A DNA stretch of 64,000 bases, from IMG/VR virus record IMGVR_UViG_3300021197_001787, positions 1 through 64,000 of that record; one strand, 5' to 3'. The DNA comes from a virus. Shown one piece after another: positions 1 through 56,192 of the stretch. Position numbers and translations under genes: made by a program. Position 1 is the first letter of the stretch. Each line of letters opens with the position of its first letter. Under the pieces are notes generated by a model. That model did no database searches and was not told where the DNA came from. It worked only from the letters and a program-made list of their open reading frames with translations.

Positions 1-98
1 ACCTGTTCGTGGTAACTGTCTTTCTCCTGCGCAAATGCGGGAGGTGGTTCTGCGGGAGGCAGAAAATCAAATTCGTTGTTGTCGTTTTCGTCTGACAT
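1..98 (-). CDS. Partial unknown protein (N-terminus only)
   Basis: Only the first 32 codons are in the window; the gene continues beyond position 1. The ATG at 98-96 is preceded by AAGGAA about 7 nt upstream, a good ribosome binding site, which supports the start. The visible peptide is acidic at the N-terminus (MSDENDNNEFDF) and then proline-rich (LPPAEPPPAF), so it looks like a flexible leader. The gene starts 11 bases after the stop of the leader-bearing gene at 110-478 and is probably co-transcribed with it. No family is recognised and no function is proposed. Confidence 0.6.
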   Translation of the reverse strand, partial: MSDENDNNEFDFLPPAEPPPAFAQEKDSYHEQ

Positions 99-109
99 TG
101 TTTATTCCT

Positions 110-478
110 TTATTCTGATACGCCGGGGATTGCATAGCCAGTGCCGCGGTCACCAGTGCCTCCGGGGAAACCCCAGTTTCGGCCGTGATTAGATGGTTTT
201 CTGTTTTTTCTTTTTTCATCGCGGATACTCTTTAGCGCCTGAAGTATTTCTGAAAGGCCGGCGTCCATAAGTCTGTGATACTTATCGTTCCAAGCTTTGT
301 CCTCTTCGTCAGTTTGTGGGTCGTATTTCAGAAGTTCTCGGTACTCATCATACAACTTTTCTTGTTCAACAGAAAGACTATTTATATATTCATCTTGTGT
401 TTGAGCGTTAGCTTCAGCCAATACAACCTCAATTTCTTCTTTAATAAGTTGTTTAAGTTGTGATTTGGTGATTTTCAT
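110..478 (-). CDS. Small hypothetical protein with shared MKITKSQLKQ leader
   Basis: A 122-residue protein of unknown function. Residues 1-21 (MKITKSQLKQLIKEEIEVVL, then AE) nearly match the N-terminus of the adjacent gene at 478-792 and resemble that of the gene at 4102-4998. The remainder is unrelated: a charged helical stretch (about 30-95), then a Gly-rich tail. The leader is a short amphipathic basic-then-acidic helix ending in L-A-E. T4 internal capsid proteins carry N-terminal targeting peptides cut after (L/I)xE by the prohead protease, so a capsid-delivered protein is one reading, by inference only. ATG 478 overlaps the previous stop as TGATG; a GTG directly before it is a less likely start. 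Confidence 0.75.
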   Translation of the reverse strand: MKITKSQLKQLIKEEIEVVLAEANAQTQDEYINSLSVEQEKLYDEYRELLKYDPQTDEEDKAWNDKYHRLMDAGLSEILQALKSIRDEKRKNRKPSNHGRNWGFPGGTGDRGTGYAIPGVSE

Positions 479-792
479 CACGACATACCCAAGTCGGCTT
501 TAATTTGTTCAAGATTTTTAGGTAGACGACCTGTATCATTTGAAACCTCGCCGGTTGGTTTGAATTGGCCGCGTTCACCACCAACTCTGTACATAAATTG
601 AGAACCGCCTGCTCCGCCGGACTGCATCGCAAATTCAATTTTGCCTTGACGAATTTGATTGCCAAACATTTTAAAAATTTCAGGGAAATACATGTCCATC
701 GTATTAGCATCATAAAATTGCGTGCGCTCGTTTAAGACACCTTCAATTTCTTCTTTGATAATTTGTTTAAGTTGCGACTTGGTAATTTTCAT
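478..792 (-). CDS. Small hypothetical protein with shared MKITKSQLKQ leader
   Basis: A 104-residue protein of unknown function. Its first 22 residues repeat the leader of the downstream neighbour almost exactly and end in L-N-E. The rest (about 25-104) contains a Gly/Ser-rich stretch and no family I recognise. AGGAG about 9 nt before ATG 792 is a strong ribosome binding site and lies right after the TAG stop of the recombination nuclease gene. The two genes are therefore translationally coupled to it and to each other (TGATG junction). Unrelated bodies with a common leader argue for a sorting tag or processing signal rather than a catalytic domain; this is inference. Confidence 0.75.
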   Translation of the reverse strand: MKITKSQLKQIIKEEIEGVLNERTQFYDANTMDMYFPEIFKMFGNQIRQGKIEFAMQSGGAGGSQFMYRVGGERGQFKPTGEVSNDTGRLPKNLEQIKADLGMS

Positions 793-803
793 TTTGTAAT
801 CTC

Positions 804-3800
804 CTATTGATTTACTCTTGCGTATCCGTCTTTCTTTTCAATCACGATTTGCATGTCAACACAATCTTTGAGCGAATCAAGGTGAGAGATCAACAAAACG
901 TTCTTAAAATACACTTTAATTAGTTCCAAGATCCGAATAAAACCCTCCATATTTTCTTCGTCCAAAGCGGTACCGGGTTCATCAAGGATAAATAAGTCAG
1001 ATTTTGGTAGTGAGGATACCGATAAGAGAGCCAAACGAATGGCCATGGCGGCCATTGTTTTCTCTGCTCCTGAAGCCATCTCAATAGGGCGCTCATCATA
1101 CTGTGGGTGTTTAATGAAAATATCAAATTTATTTCCAAGACTATCAAAAAATATTTCAAAATCTACGATGTTGGCTAATACTTTCGCTACCTCTTCATTA
1201 ATTACCGGCATTTTCTTTTTAATAATATCGTAAGCAATTCCGTTAGAGTGCATACATTGCATAAAAAGATCGTAAGCAGAAAACTCTTTTTGAAGCTTTA
1301 TAAGTTCTGCTTGTTGCTTTTGTGTGTCCTCAAGCTGCTGTTCATAAGAGCCGACGCGCTTATACAAACTCAACGTTTTTTCCTTTTCCATTTCTATAGT
1401 TTTCTTAATCTTTGTTACTAAAATCTCATGCTCTTCTTTATTGTTTAATAGTTTTTCTAGATTTTCAATTGCTTCTTTATTTTGCTCATAAGCTATCTTT
1501 TTATCCATTAGCTGTGAAACCGAATTATTAATTCTTTCTAAAGCAATATTGTTTCTCTCAATAGACATCTTTAAATCTCTAATCAAAAATTCAGTTTCTT
1601 GCTTCTTTTCATTTAACTTTTTGTACTTTTCAATGTGATCTCTTACAATATCAGGCGCCAATGTAGAAAGGGTGTCCTCTAGTGAATTAATTTCAGTTTC
1701 AAACTCGGGAATTGTGGCCACAGCAACATGCGCATCCTTAATAAATTTACATGTAGGAAACGATGTGCCACACGGGATATCATCTAGAAGTTTTTCCTTA
1801 CCAATAGCAGAATCAAGCAAGGCAGCAAAATCTGATAGTTTATTATTTATCTCTGAAATTTCACCTTGTTGGGTCAGAAGGGAATCGTAATCCAATTGGC
1901 CCATTAATACCATTATTTTATCATACCGAGATTTTTCATTCTTAAGTGTGGAAGCATCTTCAATAACTTTGTTTGATAACAGACTAATTTGTTTTTGATT
2001 CTTTTCAAGGGTTCGATAAATGTCAAAAATATCAATCGCTTCCGCAGGTATATCAGAAATTTGCTTATCTATTTCAACAAGTTTGTTGAGCTTGTCTTGG
2101 AGAAGGGCTTCATTAGAAAACACGCTCTTCTCATGTGCTGCGATTTCGGTTCTACAGGTTTTTAGGTTTATTTCAGACTGTTCAAGCTCTTGTTTATAAT
2201 CCCTGTCTCCTAACTTTTTTAGGTAAACTTTTGCTTCAATTGACTCTTCTTTCGCTAATTTAAACTTCTGATCAAATATTTCTAAGTCCAAGAATTTAGC
2301 AATAATTTCTTTACGACGAGTTGAGCCTTCATCAATAAATGCTAGCGAGCCATGTTGCGATGCTAGTGATGATACATTAAAATCCTCTATAGTCCCGAAG
2401 TGTTTCCGAATGTTAGCATCAGTATTATTCCGCGTAAGGCCATTTAAAGATGTTGTCTCACCAGTAGCATAATTAAGAACTTCAAAATTTAATTCAGTTT
2501 TAGCTTCTTGTGTCTTCTCACCCTTTAACTTTTTAATATATTTTGTAGCTTTCCTTTCAATTGTATATAAGTTGTCGTTAATTTGAATTTCTAACTTGCC
2601 GCGGCCGACTTCTTTGTTCTGATTAATTACATTAAGATTTTTGCGTTCATTCTTTGAAGTTGTGTTAAACATCGTCCACAAAGCTGCATCAACAACAGAG
2701 CTTTTACCTGAAAAGTTTTTGCCAAATATTCCGACAATCCCGTCAAGCGTATCAAAGCAGACATTGTTGTCTTCACCATAATTAAATAAATTATCGAACT
2801 CAAAGTTTATTAGTTTCCAATTTATATTACGTGATACATCTTCTTCCTTCTCAATAATTACATTGTATTTTCTATTTAATTCGTACACGCTCTCTAAGAT
2901 ATCATCTGAGATGTGGTAATCTTTTAAGTATTCGCTGATAAGCTCTTCTTGTACCTTGATATCTCGTAAATTTTCAGTTTTAAGGCCATCTGTTAATTCT
3001 TCTACATTGCCACGTTCACCAGATGCCCTGTTAAGAAATGAAATACTCTCAGGTTTAAACCTGTGCTTCGCAATGTCTACTGCTCGCTTCATCACATCTA
3101 ACGGCAAGTTGTTGTTACTAACCAATCTTAGACGGGCGCCAGTAGGTATTTGAGTATTCTTCGGCATACGACCCTTGCGCGTAAGCTCTATTGTGATAAA
3201 CGCTTTGGGATTTACAAGAGATACATGACGAGTATCAAAATTGTTTTTATCTTTAATATCCCAAATCAAATATCCTTTGTCATTACTTTCACCGTGATTT
3301 TGCTGCACTAATGAGCCAGGATACCTTGCCTTACCATCGTTGTCGATCTTTTGATTAGTCTTGTGGATGTCACCCAAGAGTGCGTAGTCGTACTTCTCAA
3401 GGGTCTCCATATCAATATCACCGTGAGTCATCATCCAGCCGCTGTCAGTGACTGAACCGACGACTGAACCATGATAGAGAGCAATGTTTGTGCGATCTTC
3501 CGGTAAGTTCTCTTGCCAGTTTTCCGGATCCACAATAGACAATACATGCAAATCAATCCCATCAGCTACTTCAATAACTTCTGAATACTTATGGAAGTGC
3601 AAGTTAGGGTGTTTCAAATTGTCAACAATCGGACTAATCGCATCTAGTCGGCCGCTATTCTTTAAATTCATGTCATGGTTGCCGAGAATCATATAATAAG
3701 GTGCGATGTCTGCTAGATTAACAAACAAATCACTCATCATACGAATCGCCTCGGGACTCAAATCAAGTTTGGTGTGGAAGGTGTCCCCAGTATTGACTAT

Positions 3801-3917
3801 GATATCTGGTTTTTCTTCCTTCAGCTTTTCATAAAGCTGCTCAAATACTGCACGGTATTCCTTGTGGTACTTTAATTTTCGGACATGGATATCCGATACG
3901 TGTGCTATTTTGATCAC
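804..3917 (-). CDS. Fused Mre11-Rad50 type recombination nuclease (SbcD-SbcC; T4 gp47-gp46 in one chain)
   Basis: A 1037-residue protein that appears to join both subunits of the Mre11/Rad50 complex, which processes DNA ends for recombination-dependent replication. Residues 1-190 hold the calcineurin-like nuclease motifs: D9-x-H11, GD45, GNH81D, H149G and GD183-x-H185. A Rad50-type ATPase follows. It has Walker A (FGKNFSGKSS, about residue 398), a long coiled coil (about 540-900), a central cysteine pair about residues 712-719 (C-x6-C rather than the usual zinc-hook CxxC), signature ASGAEK, Walker B FILDEP and a final SH motif. In T4 and most bacteria these are two adjacent genes. No internal stop or frameshift separates the halves. 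Start is GTG 3917 with AGGAG 7 nt upstream. Confidence 0.93.
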   Translation of the reverse strand: MIKIAHVSDIHVRKLKYHKEYRAVFEQLYEKLKEEKPDIIVNTGDTFHTKLDLSPEAIRMMSDLFVNLADIAPYYMILGNHDMNLKNSGRLDAISPIVDNLKHPNLHFHKYSEVIEVADGIDLHVLSIVDPENWQENLPEDRTNIALYHGSVVGSVTDSGWMMTHGDIDMETLEKYDYALLGDIHKTNQKIDNDGKARYPGSLVQQNHGESNDKGYLIWDIKDKNNFDTRHVSLVNPKAFITIELTRKGRMPKNTQIPTGARLRLVSNNNLPLDVMKRAVDIAKHRFKPESISFLNRASGERGNVEELTDGLKTENLRDIKVQEELISEYLKDYHISDDILESVYELNRKYNVIIEKEEDVSRNINWKLINFEFDNLFNYGEDNNVCFDTLDGIVGIFGKNFSGKSSVVDAALWTMFNTTSKNERKNLNVINQNKEVGRGKLEIQINDNLYTIERKATKYIKKLKGEKTQEAKTELNFEVLNYATGETTSLNGLTRNNTDANIRKHFGTIEDFNVSSLASQHGSLAFIDEGSTRRKEIIAKFLDLEIFDQKFKLAKEESIEAKVYLKKLGDRDYKQELEQSEINLKTCRTEIAAHEKSVFSNEALLQDKLNKLVEIDKQISDIPAEAIDIFDIYRTLEKNQKQISLLSNKVIEDASTLKNEKSRYDKIMVLMGQLDYDSLLTQQGEISEINNKLSDFAALLDSAIGKEKLLDDIPCGTSFPTCKFIKDAHVAVATIPEFETEINSLEDTLSTLAPDIVRDHIEKYKKLNEKKQETEFLIRDLKMSIERNNIALERINNSVSQLMDKKIAYEQNKEAIENLEKLLNNKEEHEILVTKIKKTIEMEKEKTLSLYKRVGSYEQQLEDTQKQQAELIKLQKEFSAYDLFMQCMHSNGIAYDIIKKKMPVINEEVAKVLANIVDFEIFFDSLGNKFDIFIKHPQYDERPIEMASGAEKTMAAMAIRLALLSVSSLPKSDLFILDEPGTALDEENMEGFIRILELIKVYFKNVLLISHLDSLKDCVDMQIVIEKKDGYARVNQ

Positions 3918-3928
3918 ACATTCTCCTA

Positions 3929-4030
3929 TTAATTAATAGCTTTGAGTAAAAACAGGGTACTGTAGTATGCAGTGGCCAAAACAGTGGCGTCCAGAAGTGT
4001 TTTGAAAATAAAGAAAACAACTTTGTTCAT
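3929..4030 (-). CDS. 33-residue membrane miniprotein
   Basis: A short ORF starting at ATG 4030, with a strong ribosome binding site (GGGAGG about 8 nt upstream) and a stop at 3929-3931, just before the ribosome binding site of the nuclease gene. The peptide (MNKVVFFIFKTLLDATVLAT, then a second hydrophobic half) is almost wholly hydrophobic with a Lys near each end, as expected for one membrane-spanning helix. It is the first gene after the promoter at 4056-4083. The function is unknown. The good start signals, tight placement and membrane-like composition make it more credible than a random ORF, but no homologue is recognised. Confidence 0.55.
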   Translation of the reverse strand: MNKVVFFIFKTLLDATVLATAYYSTLFLLKAIN

Positions 4031-4055
4031 AGTACAGCCCTCCCAAGCTACTATT

Positions 4056-4083
4056 ATTATATCATGTCTGTGGATAAATGCAA
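4056..4083 (-). promoter_or_regulatory. Sigma-70-like promoter for the miniprotein-nuclease operon
   Basis: On the minus strand, TTGCAT (4083-4078) and a perfect TATAAT (4061-4056) are separated by 16 nt. Transcription would start near 4049, about 20 bases before the miniprotein start. The promoter lies in the largest gap of the window (3918-4101) and would drive the miniprotein, the fused nuclease and the two leader-bearing small genes. A DnaA-box-like 9-mer lies in the spacer. Confidence 0.7.
4069..4077 (-). promoter_or_regulatory. DnaA-box-like 9-mer in promoter spacer
   Basis: TTATCCACA on the minus strand matches the E. coli DnaA-box consensus TTATNCACA exactly. It occupies nine of the sixteen bases between the -35 and -10 elements, so a protein bound here would block RNA polymerase. 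A single 9-mer can occur by chance about once in a window of this size, so the reading rests on its position. Confidence 0.35.
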
Positions 4084-4101
4084 GCTTTTTCTGTTAATAA
4101 T

Positions 4102-4998
4102 TTACTTGCCGATGTCTTGACCAGTAATTTTGTTAAACATTTGCATGTAATATTGAGAAGCAGACATGCCTGCATTTGGAAGTTCAGGATTGACCATATC
4201 TAATAGAGGATAAGATTCATATCCGAAAGATTCACCCTTGCCTTTAAGGAACTTTATACCACCTTGAGATGCTTTTTGCATCTGTGCTTGGTTCCCACCA
4301 ATATCGCTTTTACTTACTTTTGCTGGATTAAAGTCTGGTAAGTTATACAGTTGTTTATACTGCTGCGCATATTTTTCTTTGGACATGTCAGCTCCTCTAA
4401 CAGTGTTAGGGTCAATGCCTGGTTTTAAATCTGCCTTGCTGGTTACGCCCTTGGCAATTTGGTTTTTAATGTCTTGCTGTAGTTTTAGTAAAACGCCGTA
4501 CTCTTGTGAAAACATTTGTGTACGGCCGCCATCGTAGTCTTGAAAAATAGGAAAGTTTTGCATCTGGGAAACTCTATCACTAAAATCTTGACCTGCTTCA
4601 CCGCCTACAGAGCCCTTATCAGCATCCGGATTGATATTCCACATAAAGTTGGCCGATGAGCCTAACAGATCATTAACTGATTCTAATGCATGGCCGGACA
4701 ATTGCTTTTCAGCTTCTACGCTAGCTTCAGCGGCCGCGCGTTCTGCGGCTTTAATATCAGATAAATCGGAACTTTCGGATCCCAGAACACCCAATAAGCC
4801 ACCAACAACCGCTAAAGGGAGTAACCCTTTTTTGATTCTAGAAACCAAGTCGCGCCGGCGGTCTTTTTTGTATGCTTGTAGATCTTCATCGTTTTCAATA
4901 AGAAATTTGTCTAATTCTTCTTCAATTACTTGTTCTAAAAAATTATCAACTATTTCTTCTAAAATAATTTGTTTAAGTTTTGACTCAGTGATGTTCAC
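4102..4998 (-). CDS. Leader-bearing hypothetical protein with one hydrophobic segment
   Basis: A 298-residue protein of unknown function. Its N-terminus (MNITESKLKQIILEEI) is a diverged copy of the leader found at 110-478 and 478-792. It is followed by an acidic helical stretch (to about 45), a basic patch (KKDRRRDLVSRIKKG region) and a hydrophobic Gly-rich segment (LLPLAVVGGLLGVLG, about 58-72) that could insert in or touch a membrane. The C-terminal 200 residues are Gln/Ser/Asn-rich and not recognised. The start is GTG 4998, one base after the primase stop, with only a weak ribosome binding site, so coupling to primase translation is likely. A packaged internal protein is one possibility. 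Confidence 0.7.
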   Translation of the reverse strand: MNITESKLKQIILEEIVDNFLEQVIEEELDKFLIENDEDLQAYKKDRRRDLVSRIKKGLLPLAVVGGLLGVLGSESSDLSDIKAAERAAAEASVEAEKQLSGHALESVNDLLGSSANFMWNINPDADKGSVGGEAGQDFSDRVSQMQNFPIFQDYDGGRTQMFSQEYGVLLKLQQDIKNQIAKGVTSKADLKPGIDPNTVRGADMSKEKYAQQYKQLYNLPDFNPAKVSKSDIGGNQAQMQKASQGGIKFLKGKGESFGYESYPLLDMVNPELPNAGMSASQYYMQMFNKITGQDIGK

Positions 4999-6017: not shown

Positions 6018-6590
6018 TTATAGAGTTTGCAAAGCTTCTATAATTTGTGCCTTGGTCGACTTTGTATTGACCGGCAAGCCTTGTGCTTTAGCAACATTGA
6101 GAAGTTCAGCCTTCTTCATGCTTGCACTCCAGTCAGCCATAGTTACGTCACTTTGCTCGTCAGTTCCGTGAATCTCCATAAGGCTGATTTCAAAAGTCAA
6201 TTGCTCACCAGCTAGTGGGTGATTTAAATTCAATGTGACTGTATCTTCGCTTACCTCATGAATTTTTGCAAGAAATTGCCCCTCTGGACTGTTGCCTTGC
6301 ACCAACTCTCCAATCACAAACTCAAAGTCTGGTCCGAATGCTTCCTTCGGGGCAGGCTTAAAAGCTTCAGGGTTGATAGGCCCGTATGCCTCATCAGGCT
6401 CAAGAGTAATACTCTTAGTCTCACCAATAGTCATGCCGACTACCGCGTTGTTGAATCCTTCGATCATGGCTCCGGTACCAAGTTCAAAATCCAAAGTTTG
6501 TCCGCGGGTGCGGGAATTGTCAAATTCGGTACCATCTATTAAGGTACCTCTGTAATGAACACTTACAGTGTGTCCGTTTGTTGCTTTCAT
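6018..6590 (-). CDS. SlyD-like FKBP peptidyl-prolyl isomerase with C-terminal HeH/SAP-like motif
   Basis: A 190-residue FKBP of the SlyD type. These enzymes catalyse prolyl cis-trans isomerisation and act as folding helpers. Visible features are the V-x-VHYRGTLIDGTEFDNS strand-loop, the GTGAMIEGFNNAVVGM segment and an inserted flap between EAYGP and the closing LTFEISLMEIHG strand. SlyD's metal-binding His-rich tail is missing. In its place, residues about 153-190 form two predicted helices of the HeH/SAP type (MKKAELLNVAKAQGL, then KSTKAQIIEAL), a fold often found in nucleic-acid-binding proteins. The gene is monocistronic: a promoter at 6627-6655 and a terminator at 5984-6007 flank it. It may fold phage structural proteins or act near DNA/RNA; the latter is inference from the tail. 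Confidence 0.9.
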   Translation of the reverse strand: MKATNGHTVSVHYRGTLIDGTEFDNSRTRGQTLDFELGTGAMIEGFNNAVVGMTIGETKSITLEPDEAYGPINPEAFKPAPKEAFGPDFEFVIGELVQGNSPEGQFLAKIHEVSEDTVTLNLNHPLAGEQLTFEISLMEIHGTDEQSDVTMADWSASMKKAELLNVAKAQGLPVNTKSTKAQIIEALQTL

Positions 6591-20733: not shown

Positions 20734-23700
20734 TTATTCAAGCAAATCCAGTACACTCATTCCTTCTGACGAATCAGAAGAAGAGCCATCACCAAGCATA
20801 TCTAGAACTCTTTGGGCATTTCCACTAGGTGCGAATGGACCTCCACCGCCGCGCTGGATGTCGGCTGCTATATCAGCGTCTACTCGGCGTACAGTTGTGT
20901 TAACTAGTTTGGATGCATTTTCTCTAACTAAAGAGCGATTTCTGTTTGATTCATCGTCATACAATACTTCAATATCAATTTTGATTCCTTCAACGATGGA
21001 AACAAAGTCATAAGGCCAGTTATATTGAACTTCGTATGCCTGCACTGGAGGTTGTGGTGGTGCTAGTTCCCCGGGCGCTTGTGTATCGTCTGCCGTGTTT
21101 CCACCGCCGTCAGGGGTACCACTACCACCGCCTCCGCCGTAAAGCGAGGCCGGCGGGCCGTCATCGCCGACGACAACACCGTTGCCCGGATAATTTGTTC
21201 TGGCGCCAACAGAGCCGACAAATTGTAAGCCTGTTATTTTGCCAAGTGATTCGCCGGCTTGCTCAAGAACGTGATTATAATAATCACCAACAGCTTTTTG
21301 TTTAACCTTGAAAGCCATAAACCTTATGTCTTCTTTAATACCTACAAAGTGAGTGCCAGTCAATAATTCACTATTATTTAGCTCATGTGCGATTGATTGC
21401 TCTTCAAAATTAATTGTTTTGAAATCTCTTGGTGCAAGATTTTGCCACATGTAAGACATATCATCTTTATCAAAAGTGTGAGAAAACTCAAATATGTACA
21501 TTACAATTGGTGTAGTTTCGGGGTTTCTTACAAAATCAAATTCGGGAGGTAAAATGTACTTGTCCATTTTAGTAATTAATTTTCTAATTGATTCGCCGGC
21601 TGCATCAAGCGATTGGCCTTCTGGTGAAAAGGCATTTTGCATAATAGCAGCCTGCACACGTTCAGGAGGAATACGAATAAATTGTTTAGCTGCCTCTAGC
21701 GCATTGTCATCTGCCAATTCTGGATGTGACGAAAGTTTAGCGTCGTACTCTGAGGTTGTTATGTAAGGAACAAGAACTACTGCTTCTTTAATAGTACGTT
21801 TTGCGGCAAGTTCACCAAGGCGCGCACGTTTCTTTGTTGTGTTGAAGCCAAAAAGATCTGTGAGTGATTTCATTCTATTTTTGACTTGGTTACCAAAAGA
21901 GTTTGGATCATCGGGGCAGCCGCCGGTGTCGGCGGGCGTGTTCGCAGAGCTGGAAGCGCGCATTTTATTATATACAGACGGTTCATTAACAACTTTATAG
22001 TGATTTGCTAGCCATTGCTTTGGAATATCATCAATTTCAATAAATATTCCTTTACGTTTATCCGGCTCAATAATCCCAAACTGATGCCACATTCCGCGCG
22101 GTACAGAGCCTGAGCCAAATGTGGGCAATGTGAGGCTTCCGGAAGCAGCCGAAACATTTCTAACTGGGGAATTAAAGTTTAGCATTGGGGTTTCATATTT
22201 AGGCTTAATGACCCAACGCTGACCTTTGGTTTCATTTCTCGTTTCACCAAGCATCCCAAGAGCGTCACTAGCTTGGAAAGGTATTCTTTCAATACCAAAC
22301 AGGTTCAGACTAGCTGTGATCTGCATTGCGTGATCGTTAATAACACGGCCGCCAAAAATATAACTACGATCAGTACCACCGCCTTTATAATCATCAATAA
22401 TAGCCGGGACGACGCGCGAGGTCGACAATGAAGTATAAACATTTGGGCCCGGGTCAACACGCCAATAAACAACTTCTGATTTTCTTAAAATCTCATCTGC
22501 TGTATATTTTTTTGTTTCATCTGGATAGAACAATATATCGGCCCAAGCTTCTCCGTGGTAATAAGGTGGAGTAAATGACCAGTTGTGGCCGGTCCAGCAA
22601 TCTAAATTACCTGACATAGTACCACTCATTGCGTCGAGCGTAGAAGGAACTCCACTGGAACCATCACGGTCGGTGGCGATAGGGGGTCCAAATGCTGTTG
22701 TGCGGCTATACATAGTAAAGCTTTCGCGTTGTTGTGAACCACTAGTGTTGTAGGGATCTTGGGGGAGAGGATAGGTCGGTGCACCGAATCTTACATCCAA
22801 GTTTCCGGAATTCCATATCAAGCGACGGCCACCATTTGTTCCCAAAGAACAGGAAATAAGACGGTCATTTGAATAACCTGCTGCGGCGCCGCCTTGGCCG
22901 GCGACTCCCCAGCGATAACCGAATGAGGTAAAGTTAAAACTGTAATCCCTACTTCCAGACATAGAACGACGCATTCTGACGCGCGCGCTATACATCGAGC
23001 CACTTTGTATACTAATTCCGTCTTGGGGGATTTCTCGCGATTTTAGTGATGTGTAGTCGCCGCCTTGAAGATAAAAGTTAGCAGTCTCTCCAAAGAAGTT
23101 TCTAGCCATTAATTCATACTGCGGGTTTCCATTAACCGTAGCCAGCGATGCTGTGTAGGGTAAGGTACCAGACGGGTGAGGGTTATTGTCTGCAATTGTT
23201 TTGCCTAATAAATATTTTTCCGGGGAAAGAACTGTTTCAAAAGGTAAGCGCTCATCCCAAAAAGTTGTCCCAGGTGCCCACGATGAACTATCTAATTGAT
23301 CCTCATCAAACATTTCAGAATCTTGAAAGCCAGCATAAACATGGCAGGCTTCACCATATGTAGAATGGTTTTCACCAGCCGCTAAAAGCGAAAACGACTT
23401 GCGCATATTCGGTTTTCTGATTCCACCATGCAAAATAGGATAGTCAACGGCCATGCCAGACTTGATTGCGTTGTGAACTATTCCAGGGCTGAACATTGCT
23501 TGCATAATTGGGCGCGTCAAACCACCTACAGCAGTGCGGTCCAAATTACTTAAATCAATTGCGACAATTTGTCCGCCAGCAACATATTCATAAGTTGTAG
23601 TAATACTAGGGAAATAAGTTTCTGCAAATTGAGCAGTAAGATCAACCGTACGCTGGGCAGGATAGAAACCCTTATATGGATTAAATTTCTTCACAGCACT

Positions 23701-26700
23701 AACAGTAATACGTATTTCTTTTGGCTGCATAGTTGATTTAGCAAATGTTGTTCTAAAATATTTTAATTTTTCAGAGTTCGTATAATCTCTGTAGAATGAA
23801 GAAGTCTGCGCTGTCACTGCTGTTCCAGGAAATTCAAGATAATCTTTGAATTTACTAAGGGGCTGTGTTAATAATTCCCCAACATGTTCACTCATTCTGA
23901 ATTCTGGGACAATTGCATAATCTTTTGCCATAAGACGGATATCTTCTCTGAAATCTTCGTAATTATCATACCAAGGTTTAGATTTGTAAGACTTAAACTG
24001 AGGATGTTTCCTGCCGTCAAGCGAACTTGAAATTTCAATTATACCAGCTTGCTCATCAGCTTCCCAAAATGCCTCACCGCAACCAACGTCAACCACACCA
24101 TCGTTCCAGGGGCCCGGGGCTGCAGGGCCCGTTGATGCCGCATAAGGTGAGATGGAACCAGTTTCAGGGATCAACATTCCCGATGGGCCTACAACAGACT
24201 TTACGTGCGCTAGCATGTGTTTTCTTGCGTATAGCGCGCCGGGAGCATTTGTATTCGGCGCGGAGAGCCATGTCAAAAAACCGTTTGGCACTGTTCTGCG
24301 GATTGCATCGTAGTAAAATTGAGTATAATTATTTTGAAGTTCGCCGGCTTTTCCTAATGAGCGCAAACCGCCGTAGAAAGTTCCAATCACTGTGGTTGGG
24401 CCGTGGTTGGGCTGATATTGAGACGCGGTGTACTCGTTGATCTGATTGGCAACTGATGCCGTTCTAGTCAAAAAGTCTTCTTGAGCATCCAATGGCCATG
24501 CGCTTTGGCTAACAATTGCCAGACACGAGTTTAACATTGTATTACCAAGTGTTACGCGTTCGGTTATAAGATCTCTCCAGAACAAGTTATCAAAGCCTGT
24601 TCTTCTTCTAGAAGATGACACAAATTCCATACGTTGCGATGGAAAAATATTTTCAGTGTAAATCATGTAGTTCTGGTCTACCCAGCGCGCTGTTGTTCGG
24701 TCGACTGCTGCCAAAATGTAATCGAATGGTGTAAGAACGTTGTATGGATCAATGCCAGAATAGGTGTTCAGACCGTTAGAGTTAAAGAAAATCTTATTAT
24801 TGTTGTCAGTAGCCTTGAGGGTTATTGAACCACCATCTGGATCTGCGCCGGTACCACAATCATCTGTTGCTACGAGTGGGCTAAAGTTAATAATTGCTGG
24901 GCGACCCCTCATTGAAACAGGCGGTAACGTGAAGTTTGTAAGAGCAGTCGTTGTTGCTTGACCGATAAGTGTATGTTCAGGATCCCAATGTGGTGGAGAA
25001 AGTACGAAAACACCTTGATAAACGTCTCTTTCAGCCGTTGTTATAATTGAAAGTTCACTTGATGAACGCTCGTTGCGAAGAACGGGATGGTATCGCGCCC
25101 TAGAAGAGGCATATGTGCTATACCCATAAGGGCCGTTTCTCTTAAGCATCAGAGCGTTAAAGAGATAGCCAGGCGCCTGTGCCTCTGCAAAGTGTTTAAA
25201 GCCAGGCACAGAGGCACTAGGAGTGCCGCGGAACCAATCTACATACCCAACGAAACGTTGATTTCTGTATTGGTATACATTTGCGTCGTTGCCTATATTA
25301 AATAATGGTACCGTTTGAGGCCAACCAAGTGTATTTGAAGAAGCTGATATCGGCTCATAAATTAATGTATTAAGCCCAACAAAATCTTGAGGAACAAAAT
25401 CTGAACCTTGTTTGTTTTCCGATGCCCAGCTAGCTACAGCGCCCAAGGCCGACTTCGGCATCCAAGCCGTACCGTTATTGAACGCACCAAAATCACTGGA
25501 GCTTATCATCGTCATCCAAGGAACATATCCTGTGGAGCCTGAATAATATCCCGCTTGCTCGCCGTGCATCGGCATAAAGCCAGCATAACGGTAATTGCAA
25601 GGATCTGTGTCGGACATAGCACCTGTCATCCAAGCATACTGGCGGTCTCCTCTTGGAATTTGGTGGTAATGATTGAGGTTGTCATAGAAGTTACTGCATG
25701 AGTACACTATCGATGAGGAATATCCTATCACTACTGGTGTGCAGCCAGCCAATGGCGCAGGAAAAAGGCCGGAGGCTGGGCCGGCACCAAGTATGAACGC
25801 ATTGTTTGTTGTGACGGTGTGGAAGGCTACTGGGAAGAAATGATTTTCTGCTGTATGTGAATTCCAGATTGCGTTTGCGCCGGATACAAAGACCTTCGGG
25901 TTGGTTGCTTTAATAACGTCAGTTTGATTACCTTCACCAAGCTTGTACCAACCAAATAAATATGAACCACTATTACTGTATACTGAAGACGCTGTAATAT
26001 TACAAGGTATACCTCCATTGTACAGCGCTTGTACCTCAGAAGAACTTAACGCGACATCCCACAATGTTAATTGATCCATAGCGCCAGAAAAAGCATCTGA
26101 TTGAATGGCTGTTACTGTGGAATCTCCCCCAAACGTCATAATTGAATCGCCAGTACGTGGAACAGAGCCTAAATAAGAATACTCGCTAGTCGTGTTTTTA
26201 TTAGAAAAATAAGTGTATGGGCTTGTGGATTCTGTTACTGATTGTGTTACACCATTAATATATATTGCGGGGAAGGATGGTGCTTGAGTGCTACCACCCG
26301 ACACAGGAAGTACAACTGCGAGGTGAAACCATGAACCGCTATTTATCGTGGCAGCTTGGGCGGAGGCGTTGGCGTGCGTTGTATTGACGGTGTATTTGCC
26401 GCGTCGGCCTGAGCCTGCGGTATAATCCGAATTCGGAGAAGTGCGACTTTCTACGTAAAAATTTAAACTTGCTGAAACTTTTGAAATTTCAATCATTGGG
26501 CTGGCGCCGGAGGCGCCTTTGCCAACACAGAAGAAGTTTGTATAACCAACAGTATTGCCGCGAGCACACCTAAGCCAACCAGAATATGTCATACCCCTAC
26601 TTCGTGCACCAGTAAGGAAGTTTCTTGCAGATGCTGATTCAGCATTGATAAGAGAGTGCCCATAATTTTCTGAATCAGTGAAATATAATGATTTATCATT

Positions 26701-29700
26701 AATCAGTTCAGAATCTGTTAACGTTGGCACAAATCTTTCGGTTGCCTCTTTTGGTCTAGGAAGATTGTTTCTGTGGACTCTATGGAATGATGGTTTCTCA
26801 TCATATGTAGCACCTTGGTTGTTTGGTACCAGAATAGAATCTCGGAAGAACCTTGCTGCATGGCGGGCGGCATGGACATAGAGACCGTAATCGTTTCCAT
26901 GGATATCATATACTCTGATACCATTAGACTCAGCGGCGCCCGAGACAATTGGTGGACTCTGGAATGGACGTCTAACTGTAAGGTTTCTGTTATTCAAAGT
27001 ATTATAAACAGAGAATTCTCCAGCACGGAAGTCTTGATAACCTCTCGTCATGACTTCAATTCCACCGCGGTGGCTGAACTTAGAAATTATTACCGAATTG
27101 TTAGTAGTTGCTTGACCACCCAATGGTGTAGTAGCGTAACCAAGGCCGCCTTGCAGGTAATCAGTAGAATAATCTCCACTAAAATCTGTGTGCAAACCTT
27201 CAGCCGCTGCTGCGGCGCCGGTCAGTAGGAGCGGGCCGGGGGTGCCACGCGTGTACAACCCGTCCCTTGAGCCACGATGAATATCAAGCAACGTTCTTAC
27301 GGAGGTGGGGTTTGAGCCGGTGTTCCCAACATAGTTATTATAAATTTTTCGCGGAAGATTCGGCTGTTTCTCGATGAACTGCCTTGGATTTGAATTACCT
27401 CCGGGTGCTTGTACAACTTGATAATTGTGTTCATAATTACCAAGTATAGTGGAGCCAGTGGTGTGTCGGATATTCCTAATGTTGACAGGACGTTTAGCCG
27501 TAAACCCTCTGTAGTATACCGCTTTTTGAGATGCCGTGTGTGGGTATTGACCCAGTTCTTCCGGTGCGTTGGCCAAAGGATAATCAGGACCCACCATACC
27601 AATAGCGCCAGATATGGGCGGATCATCGGCCTTACCAAGAAGTATCTTCCATGCTTCCGGCCTGGTGTCCCATCGATCAAGGCCGCCTACTCCGCCAGCC
27701 ATCCCACTTATAGCATACATCCATGTACCCGTAGAGGTAATTGCAATATTACCGACTGAGTAATCAGGTGAATTAACATAATTTATTAAGCTAGCAGTAG
27801 CCGATGATTTTATTGCTGCTTTAATTGTAAAGCCCGGATACGAATTGATAGCGGCCACAAGATTTTCCATTGTTGTCTCTGTATCGCCATCAATATCAAC
27901 ATCTTCCGGGTTGCTGGGGGAAGAAGTAAACAGGAACTCTACAGACGTACCGCCGTCACTTATGGTTACAGTTCTATTAGTAATTGAGGTAATAGTGTTC
28001 ATTGATATTTCCCCAGTTGGGAAATTTGAACCAACGGCAACTTTATTGACACCTACGTGTCTTGATTGGTGGCCACCTACAGCATAATTGGTGAATGGAC
28101 CTTGTATGGGGCTTTCCATATCTGGTCCATATACATCATTGTGTAAGTTGGTGAGAATAACACCGGACATAACACGATCAACAACTTTTTTGTTATAGCC
28201 GGCTGGAATGGCGCCACTAATAATATTAAACGGGAACGAGATATCAGATTTTATATTTTGGTAACCTATACCTTCTTCCCAATCTCTACCAAATTGTACT
28301 TTTACATGTCTTCTGACCTTATCACTAGGTTTAGAAAGCGGGTCTTGTGTATTTTTAAGTCTTACAGTTTCGTCTTCTTCCCCGCTAGTGCCGTATACTG
28401 ATGAATATAACACGTTTTCCGGAACGTAAGCAGACCCATCTTGGTTGACAGGTCCATCAGGACGTAATGCGTTATAAGTTAAATCAATTTTCTTGTTTCT
28501 TTCAAAGTTTACACCACCTTTGATTGGCATTACTGGTGATGCTGTACGATATGCTGTGAATTTATAAGGCTTTGCTAATTTTCTAATAACGAAGATAGAA
28601 CCACTGTGAACACCATCAGAAATGGTTGATAGTGTATTAAGTTTTTGATTATTATCATTTTCTGCATTGGTTCTGATGATATCTCTCTGAGTATCAATAA
28701 CTTCATCACCCGTAGATATATCAGAGTTTCGTCTCTCGGCACGGTCGCGCCACCAATCACTATTCATTGATTGTTTTGCTGAGCCACTAAGTGGGCCGCC
28801 AACGCCCTCCACAAACACACTTTGACTTATTGGGGCATGATTGTATTTCCAATTATAAAGCCTCTCGTTGATTCCCATTATTGGTGTAATTGGGTCATCT
28901 AATCTAAACTCGATAGTTGGAAATTGAGACTTATACTTGTTTCTCTCAAGAACGTGACTTTCAACAACATTCATTACATCATCGGTAAACTTACCGGATG
29001 CTGGCATAAGCTGTTCAATAATTCGTGCTAAGGTATCATCAAGCCACTGATAGTACTCAATAAATTTTTCTACATCAGATGTGGTGCTGACTCGGCGGAA
29101 GAACGCTTCTCTTAATTTTTCAATTTTCTTGTATCTTGAGCGATACCTATTAACTGGTTCACCAATGATATTATTGAAATCAATGGCGCCGGCAAAGAAG
29201 TTAAGCATCTCATCAGATATTGACGCATACATACTTTTTTCAAGTGTATGATGAAAATTAGGAACTGTTTCGGTGAATCCAAAAGCGCGGTCATCAGATG
29301 TTAATATGTTAATCATATCTGAAGAGATCGGTTGCTCGGGATCAATGAATTTGAAAGTGTTTAAAACAAATTCTTTTGAAGCATCAGAAGAGTTTGCCTT
29401 AAATCCATGGCCGCGACCGGTATGTAAGTAGCCCGAAAGGCCACCCAGCCACCCTATCGCACTACGAATTTGTGCTGAACCTGACGACATGTCTTTGGTA
29501 AGAAATTGTCCGGATGCATCAGAGCCAGTAACATCACTGAAGTTCCAATCAAGGGCTAATGTGTCGCGATTTAAAAGGTCTAAGTTCTTTGAATTTGGGT
29601 CCAAAGGTGACAAATGTTGGAACGAGCCGGAGATACCAGAGTTATCTAAATCATAAATATGTTGTTTGATAGAATCATCATCAAGATATTTACCCCAGAA

Positions 29701-32316
29701 TCGTGTGTTAAACATCCGTACATCAGTCGGGTATTGAACTGTACCAGAGAAGTTTAATCTGTTTGCACCCACATACAATCTTTTTGAGCCGGATAAGAAG
29801 TGTTCGCCGGCCGTCTTACTGATTGAAGCTGTTAAGTAAAACTCATTTTCAATAGATCCAAGCTTGGTATTAATACCTTGAAATACTAAATCGTAAGTTA
29901 AACCTATGTCAGAACCAGACACAGTTTTTGCCATAGGATAATTGCTTGGTTTAAGCCTAACAGAAATGTTCCAATCATTATTATCGTACGCACCAAAATA
30001 TACACTACTTGTTAAAATTGGAAAGGGGCCGGCATTAGGGTTTAGCCATGGAGTATCACCGGACGTGTCATTTGGGTAATACGACGACGAAAGCATGAAG
30101 AAAGCATTTTTAGAAAACTTTTCTTCTCTGATAACGTAGACTTGGAAGTTGGCACTATCGTAGCCTTGCCAGCTAGTATTTGTATCAGGTGTGTGCGCTG
30201 AGGCGCTGTACATACCGAAAATTGAGGACTGATTAAAGTTGCGATCAACACTATCGTAATCAGTTTGAAAAGAAGGCAGAGTAAAATCTGTTTCGGCTGT
30301 AAATCCATAGACATTCTGGAATCCGCCATGGCCAGATCCCGAGATATAGCCTCTACTATTCGTTGTATCGTCCGGGTCTTGATACTGGAAACAAGTTCCA
30401 TTAATATGACTAGACGTATTAAAGTACAGAGCTTTCTTATTTGCCAGAGTTTGTTCAAGCCTTGGAGTACGACTGTCTAAATCATAAACAGTATTGTCGG
30501 CATAAGTTCTTAATTTTATTATTGTGTCATCTAGATTGAAACACCTAAAGACATTCCGAATGGTCTTTTCCGTACCTTTGGTTTTGTAAATACTGGTTAA
30601 ATTGTTATATAAGTTTTGATAAATAAGATTTTTTGTCTCACTCAAATCATTTTGAAAAGCAAAATCTTCTGTTTTATTCATGAATCTGCTTATGACATCA
30701 GCATCTACAAAAAGCTGTGGAGTGTAAAGCCCCAAGGACTGCGGTAAGTGTTCAGCAAATGGCAGTGGAGTGTTGGAGGCACTTGTATACTGCATTTGCT
30801 TAAATGTCGGTATTGCTTCAATCTGATTGTAGATCTTATCAAAATAAGAACCCATAATGTGTGTCAGAAGTTCAACATTAGTATTCCCAAGAGCTTCGTG
30901 TTCTTCTAAAACCCAGCTAGGGATTAAAGTTTTTAAATTAGAGGTATTGTTTCTATCGTGAAAAGAACCAGAGTTAAAAAGCCCTTGGCGCACATTGACT
31001 ACATCTGGGTGTAAAGAATATATAATTGGGTCTTTGTATTCGGATGCGGCCGCGGAGGCTTCAACGATAGCGGAGCTAATAGTCCTTGAAGGTGTGCCGG
31101 TCCATGTTCCGTTAGTTAAGCGCCCTGAATAATCAAGGACGTTGCTATCAAGATACCCATATCCAGAATTTCCTTCATTGAATTTGTAATATACACCAAG
31201 TGTGGTATTATTAATATCTGTGTTGGTTCCGCCGCGGACTTGACTGAACCAATTTTTTCCAATATCGTCCGCGGTTCTTGCTGCTTTCCAATATCTAAAT
31301 TCATCGATAGAGCCAGTAAAGGTGTGAGTATTAGCTGCACGTGTGGAGGCTACGCCGTCCGCGCGGAATGGAGCCGTAATAAGCGCTCCAATTTTACCAG
31401 CCATGTCAATTGACGGTAATTCGCCGAATGTTATGCCAGAATTGATTACGGTGTGGTTTAAGTAACCATTAAGATAGAAGTTGGTTCTAAAATCAGAGCC
31501 AGAATTTTCAAAAACAAAAGAATAATGATTCCAATCGTCTAGCGCCGTGGATATTATATTCTGCCCAATTGTTTGTCTAAAGAGTGTGTTGGTCGAACCT
31601 GATGAAACTGTAAACAAGAACGGACTCGTAGATGAGCCGCTTTGTATTTCAATTGTCATACGGCCCATGTCGTGTGAGCCGGATGCGTTATTGTTCCACA
31701 TGTCAAAAATAATTGAGTTTGCGTTTGTGGCCAAGTTTACACTTTTTAACCAAAACTCAATTGAAACACCGCTATTAAAGTTTGCTCTTAAATTTGATTC
31801 TCGGGATCCTGTACCATATGAGTCAGGAAGGCCAGCACTTTCATAAATGTTCTTATCGTAAACATTTGCATGCATTCTTTTACTATCTAAGGGGTTGTCA
31901 AAAAGCTCTGAGGCTTTATCGTAGGTTACTCCGTGGGGGCCACCCTTCAGGTCTATGTAAGAACTAGAGTTAAAGTTAGCATAACCGTTGGTCCTAGGAA
32001 ATAAATTATTGAAAATATACTTCTCTACATCTAACGACTTGTTGTAAAATTCGTTTTGTTCGTAATATGAACCATCATATGGATAATAATCAATAATACG
32101 GCCGAAGGCACCACTATAATAATAATAAGCAGAACCAAATTTAGCAAAGTTGTCCGGTTGGGAATAATCTATCTGGGGTACAAAGGTTTCTTGCTTTGTA
32201 GCAAGCTGCTCAATGTTCTTGGAAGATTCAACATCTTTAAAAAGATTTTTTTGATTTGTTTCCGCTAAATAATTTCGTGAACCATCTGCTGAACCAAAAA
32301 GTTTTTTAATACTCAT
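20734..32316 (-). CDS. Giant 3860-residue baseplate/tail protein with two LamG-like domains
   Basis: One uninterrupted frame of 11.6 kb. Residues about 112-380 form a LamG/concanavalin-like jelly roll (VSIEFWLKS, YLNGYLNH, GSIDEFRYWK strands) and about 1870-2130 form a second (GWLRCARG, AIYINGVTQ, GAMDQLTLWDVALSSSEVQA). Such domains usually bind carbohydrates. Residues about 470-610 (LLTHIMGSYFDKIYNQIEAI ... KGTEKTIRNVFRCF) resemble the P2 gpI / T4 gp7 type baseplate segment, so it may be an enlarged wedge protein; this is a weak match by eye. A helical section (1060-1150), a flagellin- or Ig-like beta module (about 1430-1530) and a Gly-rich linker near the C-terminus are also visible. T4 gp7 has about 1030 residues. 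It follows the gp6- and DNRLRE-like genes, matching a wedge role. Confidence 0.8.
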   Translation of the reverse strand: MSIKKLFGSADGSRNYLAETNQKNLFKDVESSKNIEQLATKQETFVPQIDYSQPDNFAKFGSAYYYYSGAFGRIIDYYPYDGSYYEQNEFYNKSLDVEKYIFNNLFPRTNGYANFNSSSYIDLKGGPHGVTYDKASELFDNPLDSKRMHANVYDKNIYESAGLPDSYGTGSRESNLRANFNSGVSIEFWLKSVNLATNANSIIFDMWNNNASGSHDMGRMTIEIQSGSSTSPFLFTVSSGSTNTLFRQTIGQNIISTALDDWNHYSFVFENSGSDFRTNFYLNGYLNHTVINSGITFGELPSIDMAGKIGALITAPFRADGVASTRAANTHTFTGSIDEFRYWKAARTADDIGKNWFSQVRGGTNTDINNTTLGVYYKFNEGNSGYGYLDSNVLDYSGRLTNGTWTGTPSRTISSAIVEASAAASEYKDPIIYSLHPDVVNVRQGLFNSGSFHDRNNTSNLKTLIPSWVLEEHEALGNTNVELLTHIMGSYFDKIYNQIEAIPTFKQMQYTSASNTPLPFAEHLPQSLGLYTPQLFVDADVISRFMNKTEDFAFQNDLSETKNLIYQNLYNNLTSIYKTKGTEKTIRNVFRCFNLDDTIIKLRTYADNTVYDLDSRTPRLEQTLANKKALYFNTSSHINGTCFQYQDPDDTTNSRGYISGSGHGGFQNVYGFTAETDFTLPSFQTDYDSVDRNFNQSSIFGMYSASAHTPDTNTSWQGYDSANFQVYVIREEKFSKNAFFMLSSSYYPNDTSGDTPWLNPNAGPFPILTSSVYFGAYDNNDWNISVRLKPSNYPMAKTVSGSDIGLTYDLVFQGINTKLGSIENEFYLTASISKTAGEHFLSGSKRLYVGANRLNFSGTVQYPTDVRMFNTRFWGKYLDDDSIKQHIYDLDNSGISGSFQHLSPLDPNSKNLDLLNRDTLALDWNFSDVTGSDASGQFLTKDMSSGSAQIRSAIGWLGGLSGYLHTGRGHGFKANSSDASKEFVLNTFKFIDPEQPISSDMINILTSDDRAFGFTETVPNFHHTLEKSMYASISDEMLNFFAGAIDFNNIIGEPVNRYRSRYKKIEKLREAFFRRVSTTSDVEKFIEYYQWLDDTLARIIEQLMPASGKFTDDVMNVVESHVLERNKYKSQFPTIEFRLDDPITPIMGINERLYNWKYNHAPISQSVFVEGVGGPLSGSAKQSMNSDWWRDRAERRNSDISTGDEVIDTQRDIIRTNAENDNNQKLNTLSTISDGVHSGSIFVIRKLAKPYKFTAYRTASPVMPIKGGVNFERNKKIDLTYNALRPDGPVNQDGSAYVPENVLYSSVYGTSGEEDETVRLKNTQDPLSKPSDKVRRHVKVQFGRDWEEGIGYQNIKSDISFPFNIISGAIPAGYNKKVVDRVMSGVILTNLHNDVYGPDMESPIQGPFTNYAVGGHQSRHVGVNKVAVGSNFPTGEISMNTITSITNRTVTISDGGTSVEFLFTSSPSNPEDVDIDGDTETTMENLVAAINSYPGFTIKAAIKSSATASLINYVNSPDYSVGNIAITSTGTWMYAISGMAGGVGGLDRWDTRPEAWKILLGKADDPPISGAIGMVGPDYPLANAPEELGQYPHTASQKAVYYRGFTAKRPVNIRNIRHTTGSTILGNYEHNYQVVQAPGGNSNPRQFIEKQPNLPRKIYNNYVGNTGSNPTSVRTLLDIHRGSRDGLYTRGTPGPLLLTGAAAAAEGLHTDFSGDYSTDYLQGGLGYATTPLGGQATTNNSVIISKFSHRGGIEVMTRGYQDFRAGEFSVYNTLNNRNLTVRRPFQSPPIVSGAAESNGIRVYDIHGNDYGLYVHAARHAARFFRDSILVPNNQGATYDEKPSFHRVHRNNLPRPKEATERFVPTLTDSELINDKSLYFTDSENYGHSLINAESASARNFLTGARSRGMTYSGWLRCARGNTVGYTNFFCVGKGASGASPMIEISKVSASLNFYVESRTSPNSDYTAGSGRRGKYTVNTTHANASAQAATINSGSWFHLAVVLPVSGGSTQAPSFPAIYINGVTQSVTESTSPYTYFSNKNTTSEYSYLGSVPRTGDSIMTFGGDSTVTAIQSDAFSGAMDQLTLWDVALSSSEVQALYNGGIPCNITASSVYSNSGSYLFGWYKLGEGNQTDVIKATNPKVFVSGANAIWNSHTAENHFFPVAFHTVTTNNAFILGAGPASGLFPAPLAGCTPVVIGYSSSIVYSCSNFYDNLNHYHQIPRGDRQYAWMTGAMSDTDPCNYRYAGFMPMHGEQAGYYSGSTGYVPWMTMISSSDFGAFNNGTAWMPKSALGAVASWASENKQGSDFVPQDFVGLNTLIYEPISASSNTLGWPQTVPLFNIGNDANVYQYRNQRFVGYVDWFRGTPSASVPGFKHFAEAQAPGYLFNALMLKRNGPYGYSTYASSRARYHPVLRNERSSSELSIITTAERDVYQGVFVLSPPHWDPEHTLIGQATTTALTNFTLPPVSMRGRPAIINFSPLVATDDCGTGADPDGGSITLKATDNNNKIFFNSNGLNTYSGIDPYNVLTPFDYILAAVDRTTARWVDQNYMIYTENIFPSQRMEFVSSSRRRTGFDNLFWRDLITERVTLGNTMLNSCLAIVSQSAWPLDAQEDFLTRTASVANQINEYTASQYQPNHGPTTVIGTFYGGLRSLGKAGELQNNYTQFYYDAIRRTVPNGFLTWLSAPNTNAPGALYARKHMLAHVKSVVGPSGMLIPETGSISPYAASTGPAAPGPWNDGVVDVGCGEAFWEADEQAGIIEISSSLDGRKHPQFKSYKSKPWYDNYEDFREDIRLMAKDYAIVPEFRMSEHVGELLTQPLSKFKDYLEFPGTAVTAQTSSFYRDYTNSEKLKYFRTTFAKSTMQPKEIRITVSAVKKFNPYKGFYPAQRTVDLTAQFAETYFPSITTTYEYVAGGQIVAIDLSNLDRTAVGGLTRPIMQAMFSPGIVHNAIKSGMAVDYPILHGGIRKPNMRKSFSLLAAGENHSTYGEACHVYAGFQDSEMFDEDQLDSSSWAPGTTFWDERLPFETVLSPEKYLLGKTIADNNPHPSGTLPYTASLATVNGNPQYELMARNFFGETANFYLQGGDYTSLKSREIPQDGISIQSGSMYSARVRMRRSMSGSRDYSFNFTSFGYRWGVAGQGGAAAGYSNDRLISCSLGTNGGRRLIWNSGNLDVRFGAPTYPLPQDPYNTSGSQQRESFTMYSRTTAFGPPIATDRDGSSGVPSTLDAMSGTMSGNLDCWTGHNWSFTPPYYHGEAWADILFYPDETKKYTADEILRKSEVVYWRVDPGPNVYTSLSTSRVVPAIIDDYKGGGTDRSYIFGGRVINDHAMQITASLNLFGIERIPFQASDALGMLGETRNETKGQRWVIKPKYETPMLNFNSPVRNVSAASGSLTLPTFGSGSVPRGMWHQFGIIEPDKRKGIFIEIDDIPKQWLANHYKVVNEPSVYNKMRASSSANTPADTGGCPDDPNSFGNQVKNRMKSLTDLFGFNTTKKRARLGELAAKRTIKEAVVLVPYITTSEYDAKLSSHPELADDNALEAAKQFIRIPPERVQAAIMQNAFSPEGQSLDAAGESIRKLITKMDKYILPPEFDFVRNPETTPIVMYIFEFSHTFDKDDMSYMWQNLAPRDFKTINFEEQSIAHELNNSELLTGTHFVGIKEDIRFMAFKVKQKAVGDYYNHVLEQAGESLGKITGLQFVGSVGARTNYPGNGVVVGDDGPPASLYGGGGGSGTPDGGGNTADDTQAPGELAPPQPPVQAYEVQYNWPYDFVSIVEGIKIDIEVLYDDESNRNRSLVRENASKLVNTTVRRVDADIAADIQRGGGGPFAPSGNAQRVLDMLGDGSSSDSSEGMSVLDLLE

Positions 32317-46282: not shown

Positions 46283-46500
46283 TACTTAACCATTTTTAAT
46301 AGGTCATCTTCAGTGATTGCGGAATCGTTAGACATTCTAACTGTAGGCGGGTTTGATACGATAAGCCCGTCTTCTCCGTCAATCAACTCAAAGCCTTTAA
46401 GAATTGGTACAATGTCCAATTCATTTAGTAATGACTCTTGAAGAGCCATCATCACGGCTCCGAGGGCCTGATTTGATAGTTTGTGTGTAGGTGTGTTCAT
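46282..46500 (-). CDS. Small conserved-looking hypothetical protein
   Basis: A 72-residue protein, unrecognised. Residues 8-30 form a helix (LSNQALGAVMMALQESLLNE). A beta-like stretch around a GFELIDGEDGLIV turn and an acidic helix (ITEDDLLKMV) follow. Short proteins of this pattern occur in phage genomes next to structural genes, but no function is known to me. It sits one base after the sugar dehydrogenase stop and so is probably read from the same transcript as the glycan block. Confidence 0.6.
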   Translation of the reverse strand: MNTPTHKLSNQALGAVMMALQESLLNELDIVPILKGFELIDGEDGLIVSNPPTVRMSNDSAITEDDLLKMVK

Positions 46501-46501
46501 T

Positions 46502-56138: not shown

Positions 56139-56162
56139 AATTTTTACATACTCCTATTACGT

Positions 56163-56191
56163 ATTATAATCTCAAATGATTGTTTTGTCAA
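56163..56191 (-). promoter_or_regulatory. Consensus sigma-70-like promoter inside the glycan locus
   Basis: On the minus strand, a perfect TTGACA (56191-56186) and a perfect TATAAT (56168-56163) are separated by exactly 17 nt, in the 54-base gap before the epimerase gene. It is the strongest promoter match in the window and is expected to be read by unmodified host RNA polymerase early in infection. Confidence 0.85.
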
Positions 56192-56192
56192 G

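Follow-up and report, generated by a model that had tools for sequence, protein, structure and literature searches.

Candidate capsid-targeting leaders on unrelated proteins of an uncultured virus with a T4 gp21-type prohead protease

Three minus-strand genes at the start of the window (the whole stretch analysed, bases 1-64000 of a 194,231-base virus record) encode unrelated proteins behind a common N-terminal leader. We read this leader as a capsid-targeting propeptide like those on T4 internal proteins, feeding a hypervariable set of internal proteins, with a probability of about 0.8. The observations behind this reading are the leaders themselves, a prohead protease gene in the same record, conservation that stops at (L/I)xE, the genomic linkage of leader and protease, and the swapping of both cargo and leader. 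A sequence-only reading of the window had already proposed such a propeptide, and leader statistics, linkage to gp21, closeness to the head genes and exchange of leader and cargo argue for it as a prediction from sequence. The principle of a head-loading propeptide is already known from T4. Relative to the sources that we searched, the leader sequences are new, as are the presence of two classes in one genome, how many proteins are tagged, a cargo rich in enzymes and the spread across uncultured viruses.

For all but a few model phages, little is known of which proteins are carried in the head and delivered to the host. Should the leaders prove to be head-loading tags, candidate injected effectors of a widespread uncultured group could be listed by motif search straight from sequence, and hundreds of small uncharacterised proteins would become a testable class. 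As address labels, the tags would also be candidates for directing proteins of choice into phage heads.

Two leader classes in one record

The consensus N-terminus common to the three window genes is MKITK(S/Q)xLKQIIKEE... (leader A; Table 1). The coordinates and strand of the three genes were confirmed, and the leader is beyond chance, since a 22-aa leader query recovers all three window copies and others in the record with E-values down to 9e-10. An (L/I)xE lies at residue 14 in every window copy (LIKE, IIKE, IILE). The candidate cut sites are LIKE14 before E and VLAE22 before A in gene 110-478, and IIKE14 before E and VLNE22 before R in gene 478-792; gene 4102-4998 has IILE14 before E and no LxE at residue 22. 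The L-A-E and L-N-E that the sequence-only reading placed after the leader of the two small genes both end exactly at residue 22. Its description of the leader held for the three copies and missed both the earlier site at residue 14 and the second leader class described below. The claim that the bodies diverge completely was borne out: they are mutually unrelated after the leader, with zero Pfam matches above cut-off and zero PHROG matches. Homologues of the 4102-4998 body were found in near-identical strains only, and 478-792 has one full-length match at 97%, its other homologues matching mainly the leader. An AlphaFold model of the 298-aa window protein had a pLDDT of 36 and was unusable.

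Table 1. Tagged genes, leaders and head-module genes; the window is the first part of the record.
Feature	Coordinates	Strand	Details
Tagged gene 1	window 110-478	minus	leader A copy 1
Leader A copy 1	window 413..478	minus	MKITKSQLKQLIKEEIEVVLAE, 22 residues
Body 1 and stop	window 110..412	minus	after residue 22; pI 5.2; family not found
Tagged gene 2	window 478-792	minus	leader A copy 2
Leader A copy 2	window 727..792	minus	MKITKSQLKQIIKEEIEGVLNE
Body 2 and stop	window 478..726	minus	family not found
Tagged gene 3	window 4102-4998	minus	GTG start, N-terminus MNITESKLKQIILEEIVDNFLE
Leader A diverged copy 3	window 4957..4998	minus	MNITESKLKQIILE, 14 residues
Body 3 and stop	window 4102..4956	minus	hydrophobic stretch LLPLAVVGGLLGVLG; family not found
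Leader A copies	record 192486-192536 and 193127-193180		22-residue leader query
Weaker leader A matches	record 93575; 89343 (internal)		22-residue leader query
Leader A gene	record 188240-189073		ORF scan; internal GTG start, MQITESRLKQIILEE
Leader A gene	record 189551-190156		ORF scan; MKITKNDIRQAILE
Leader B genes	record 82525, 83195, 83599, 87881		MKLLLENWRQY(L/I)NE
Leader B, diverged forms	record 182664, 192568		
Leader B by motif	record 79865, 117467, 179725		
gp21-type prohead protease	record 181682-182287		PF03420 E 4e-29, 102 bits vs cut-off 27; phrog_207 E 3e-55
gp23-type capsid	record 169619-171538		homologue
gp20-type portal	record 184645-186651		homologue
Large terminase (TerL)	record 186660-188243		homologue

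Searched for across the full 194-kb record, leader A occurs on five further genes. A second leader of 14 residues, MKLLLENWRxY(L/I)NE (leader B), is found on six to nine other record genes. Position-specific scoring matrices built from public leaders placed 15 record ORFs above zero (8 in class A, 7 in class B) and all others below. Both leaders end at (L/I)xE, the motif cut by T4 gp21. Compared directly as profiles, A and B gave a positive score in no register; offset 0 was among the best and +4 slightly better per column. On account of their length, K2, (I/L)12 and E14, and not of overall similarity, the two are read as putative versions of one 14-residue design, M-K-(I/L)-x(4)-(L/W)-(K/R)-x-(I/Y)-(I/L)-x-E. 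Most tagged bodies are acidic (pI 4.2-5.2), which counts against a likeness to T4 internal proteins; the exceptions are 478, 79865, 83195 and 93356 (pI 7.0-9.2).

The sequence-only reading also took the leader DNA to be similar, as if the tag moved as a cassette. Identical codons at shared residues are in excess for 110 vs 478 (10/14, expected 6.5, sd 1.8) and 110 vs 4102 (8/10, expected 4.2, sd 1.5), but not for 478 vs 4102 (6/11, expected 4.6), and most other leader pairs are near expectation. These counts weakly suggest that the leader may move as a DNA cassette. A 28-bp repeat, TATGAATGGATTAGCAACATAGGAGATT, lies on the minus strand at record 191822, 192154, 192540 and 193184, exact before three genes and degenerate before the fourth. 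The exact copies (~192-193 kb) are upstream of two leader-A genes and of one leaderless gene, and the repeat was set aside as cassette evidence because of the latter. Related copies precede ~10% of leader-A genes on other contigs, and the repeat is possibly a shared promoter or ribosome site, or a recombination target.

Protease, conservation boundary and genome linkage

The sequence-only reading depended on a gp21-type protease gene, and the record encodes one (Table 1). Its GELDHP and GISSRGMGS segments align with the T4 gp21 His and Ser positions of structure 5jbl. The 5jbl chain has Ala at these catalytic positions, where wild-type T4 gp21 has His and Ser. The record protease is thus predicted to be a member of Peptidase S77 (T4 gp21) with both residues conserved. 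The HK97-type prohead protease (Peptidase S78, PF04586) had no match in the record at E<=10. By eye, the capsid N-terminus has an (L/I)xE at about residue 60, with ARLLENQAKELLRE before and ATAMNAGDVQGF after the candidate cut; T4 gp23 is cut at about the same position. Leader-B proteins adjoin gp21 on the record (179725-181689 and 182664-183251). The record ends are adjacent in relatives, and the leader genes at 188-194 kb and 0-5 kb therefore form one cluster beside the terminase.

Both leaders are common in public viral contigs, ahead of unrelated proteins; the scan for leader A returned at least 120 stretches. Among 157 leader-A proteins, conservation drops to background past residue 22. 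In 67/156 (43%) the E of an (L/I)xE falls on residue 21 or 22, against ~1% per position downstream; that the second site is present in just 43% of leader-A proteins counts against the propeptide reading. A second leader-A scan, whose pattern was the first nine residues only and did not require the cut site, found (L/I)xE14 in 81/106 and the 21/22 site in 32/106 over a background of 0.5% per position. The leader-B search pattern ended at residue 12, yet E14 is present in 127/144 proteins although it lies outside the pattern, and conservation stops there. Leaders A and B, different in sequence, therefore both halt at the same protease motif. In a bacterial/archaeal collection of 257 Gb, leader A was found in 6 stretches only, on four contigs. 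Two bacterial/archaeal bins with leader A contain gp21 as well, and appear to be phage sequence binned in error. No close match to either leader was found in 50,697 GenBank phage records, which gave a single weak leader-A match (an uncultured 484-kb phage) and a leader-B hit at chance level. A literature search for the leader strings found nothing relevant.

The gp21 gene is present in 30/45 leader-A contigs (Fisher p 4e-9) and 12/38 leader-B contigs (p 0.002) vs 1/32 random contigs of 29 kb or more. For contigs over 125 kb, the counts are 10/11 (leader A), 9/9 (leader B) and 1/9 (random). Leader A occurs in 20/20 leader-bearing records of this size, with up to 21 copies each, and leader B in 17/20; nine of the 20 had been picked for leader B alone. 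Neither leader was found in nine controls over 125 kb, one of which (G049) has gp21. A gp21-positive control without either leader counts against the tag reading. Of 17 contigs, 13 have leader-A genes no further than 20 kb from gp21, against 4.8 expected at random (p 5e-5). One phage lineage could be behind part of the link between gp21 and the leaders.

Cargo exchange and competing explanations

If the leaders are propeptides, the amphipathic N-terminal leader, once made in the infected cell, would bind the prohead's scaffold core during assembly, and any protein carrying it would thereby be loaded. The gp21-type protease would then cut after the (L/I)xE of residue 14, and many leaders would be cut a second time near residue 22. 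Leader A would be read as MKITKxQLKQIIKE/E and leader B as MKLLLENWRxYLNE/, with the slash marking the cut. The cut would leave the body free within the head, to be packaged alongside the DNA and then probably delivered by ejection to the next host. Core binding, cleavage, packaging and ejection of the tagged proteins are steps that we infer, and the internal proteins behind the leaders are probably injected.

The cargo is varied. Body matches among 110 leader-B proteins scanned include HAD, NUDIX, P-loop kinase, Zeta-toxin-like, GNAT, M23 peptidase, amidase, exonuclease, GDSL and other families. Leader-A bodies are mostly without a known family and gave single matches to DnaJ, LRR and FliG_C. 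A ~550-residue body is found behind leader B in L345 and behind an A-like leader (MKLTLEAIEKLINE) in L034; the two are 54% identical. In G120, a near-identical sister phage, genes of the head and replication regions are 95-100% identical, most of them 97-100%. Its counterpart of gene 110 has the same leader on a 41%-identical protein, its match to 192183 is confined to the first 40 residues, and genes 192568 and 192947 are absent from it. At the 478 locus, G121 has another leader-A protein whose body differs, and in G035 the 478 and 4102 loci have leader-type N-termini and diverged bodies; the 478-792 body is 97% identical in one sister phage. Cargo is hypervariable between close relatives while the leader stays (G120 and G121 vs G000; G035).

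One alternative accepts loading into the head and differs in what follows: most of the proteins would be retained as scaffold or core and then destroyed or expelled at maturation, without injection. The leader-B proteins adjoining gp21 favor this fate, as this is where the T4 genome has its core genes (gp22/67/68). The T4 core products gp22/67/68 are chopped by gp21 (PMC9026906). Many of the cargoes, however, are single-domain enzymes with one N-terminal leader, like T4 Alt and the internal proteins, and we consider such a fate unlikely.

It is quite improbable that the leader is an uncut N-terminal helix docking to some other phage-made structure (a replication factory, a tubulin-like filament or a membrane), with the (L/I)xE ending a by-product of an amphipathic, Glu-rich helix. 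The leaders do resemble amphipathic helices rich in Lys and Glu, a tubulin/FtsZ-like protein is encoded beside the leader cluster (PF00091 E 3.5e-8), and kinase, NUDIX and nuclease cargo could work in the producing cell. A docking helix fits poorly with conservation that stops at (L/I)xE in two different leaders, including a leader-B E14 outside the search pattern, with the tight linkage to gp21 and the head module, and with a register that is the same as that of the T4 CTS. Ordinary paralogy by recent duplication, the leader being kept for folding or oligomerising with a fast-diverging body, would draw on the tandem neighbours 110-478/478-792 and 192183/192947, their mild excess of identical codons and the exact upstream repeat at 192-193 kb, and is barely plausible given unrelated body folds (NUDIX, amidase, M23, kinase, HAD, DnaJ, LRR), a single body behind two different leaders, and a sister with 97-100% identical flanks that has exchanged, not gradually diverged, its bodies.

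A broader form of the propeptide reading, to which we give slightly less than even odds, is that an abundant uncultured T4-like group uses two parallel head-loading tags to pack a large and rapidly exchanged arsenal, over a dozen proteins in each phage, including enzymes and cleavable lysine-rich polyproteins. Here we see the leaders on environmental contigs only. If true, the arsenal would include kinases, NUDIX proteins, amidases, nucleases and Zeta-toxin-like kinases, and the tag would be an address label for injected effectors across a virus group.

Record 88332-89723 (L009:5832-7223; minus strand) encodes a 463-aa Lys-rich protein with a pI of 9.9, in which basic modules are linked by leader-like segments ending LxE ahead of Lys runs. 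At its junctions DLEQIIKEELEAVLDE is followed by KRKKKKKKKKK, GPLDE by KKKKRKK, and DSLEE by KKKKK. In L300, L401 and L319, leader A or B precedes related modules. From its sequence, the protein looks like a polyprotein that the head protease could cut into basic peptides; in the arsenal reading these would be DNA-binding.

Comparison with T4 and other systems

T4 internal proteins carry capsid-targeting propeptides of 10-19 residues that gp21 cuts after L/I-x-E; in IPIII, residues 4 and 7 weigh most in targeting and residues 8 and 10 in processing, and the proteins are basic (PMC9026906). T-even internal proteins show wide variation downstream of the CTS, which is itself conserved (PMC3012670). 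The leaders described here are likewise short N-terminal segments ending (L/I)xE on otherwise unrelated proteins, in a genome with a gp21-family protease and with bodies swapped between close relatives. Slid along the leaders, the T4 CTS MKTYQEFIAE has its best register at +4 for both, with E10 on E14. In this register W8/Y11 of leader B fall on T4 Y4/F7 and L12/E14 on I8/E10, so that leader B has the aromatic-x-x-aromatic-(I/L)-x-E spacing of the T4 CTS. Leader A has aliphatic L8/I11 where the T4 targeting residues are aromatic, which counts against the likeness. The best-register scores against MKTYQEFIAE are below zero (B -3.0, A -13.0). As these scores are low in absolute terms, the likeness is one of design, with no demonstrable homology. 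The leaders differ from the T4 CTS in their sequence, in their length of 14 or 22 residues and in forming two classes in one genome, and leader A reaches 21 detectable copies per genome vs three internal proteins in T4. Unlike T4 internal proteins, the cargo is mostly acidic and often enzyme-like, and both host and phage are uncultured.

T4 Ip1, Ip2 and Ip3, which have only the leader in common, are injected proteins that block three different GmrSD type IV restriction enzymes, one each (PMC12373910). It is therefore reasonable to seek new anti-defence proteins among the tagged cargo, and by this analogy an anti-defence function of the small tagged proteins is our first guess. T4 Alt, an injected ADP-ribosyltransferase, is carried in the head and is a gp21 substrate (PMC9026906). 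No Alt family members were identified among the proteins here. In a leader-B family (L309:4765-5892, L379:3363-3908, L403:4622-5803) the pattern VVYHYT...FMASGGF...DYW...EAEDRI, found by eye, suggests an ADP-ribosyltransferase-like fold as in T4 Alt. An AlphaFold model of the family (pLDDT 49; no Foldseek match at E<=0.001) was unusable.

The ejection proteins and gp21-like proteases of phiKZ and SPN3US are similar in that propeptides are cut after x-x-E. SPN3US gp53 and gp54 are diverged paralogues with an identical N-terminus, MANFVKSKLARESVE (PMC5694885). SPN3US differs in cutting at AxE and in having several propeptides of more than 100 residues, where we find (L/I)xE and a short leader. 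In phage P1, the first 30 residues of DarB are enough for a foreign protein to reach the capsid (PMC9024508). We liken this signal, described on one large protein, by description and not by sequence, and P1 appears to be without a separate T4-like scaffold.

Several other features of the record were observed. The tubulin/FtsZ-like gene is split by the record ends (window 1-108 and record 193190-194212; PF00091 E 3.5e-8), and relatives have intact 380-aa copies (L486:9824-10966, L576:8652-9794). At window 804-3917 one 1037-aa chain joins gp47- and gp46-like recombination functions (Metallophos and SMC_N), and window 6018-6590 is a phage-encoded FKBP-type peptidyl-prolyl isomerase (PF00254 E 1e-21). 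ORFs of 3860 and 2157 aa (window 20734-32316 and 36076-42549) stand among presumed structural genes. From ~46500 to 64000 the window holds a long gene run with N-termini that, by eye, resemble sugar-nucleotide epimerases/dehydratases and glycosyltransferases.
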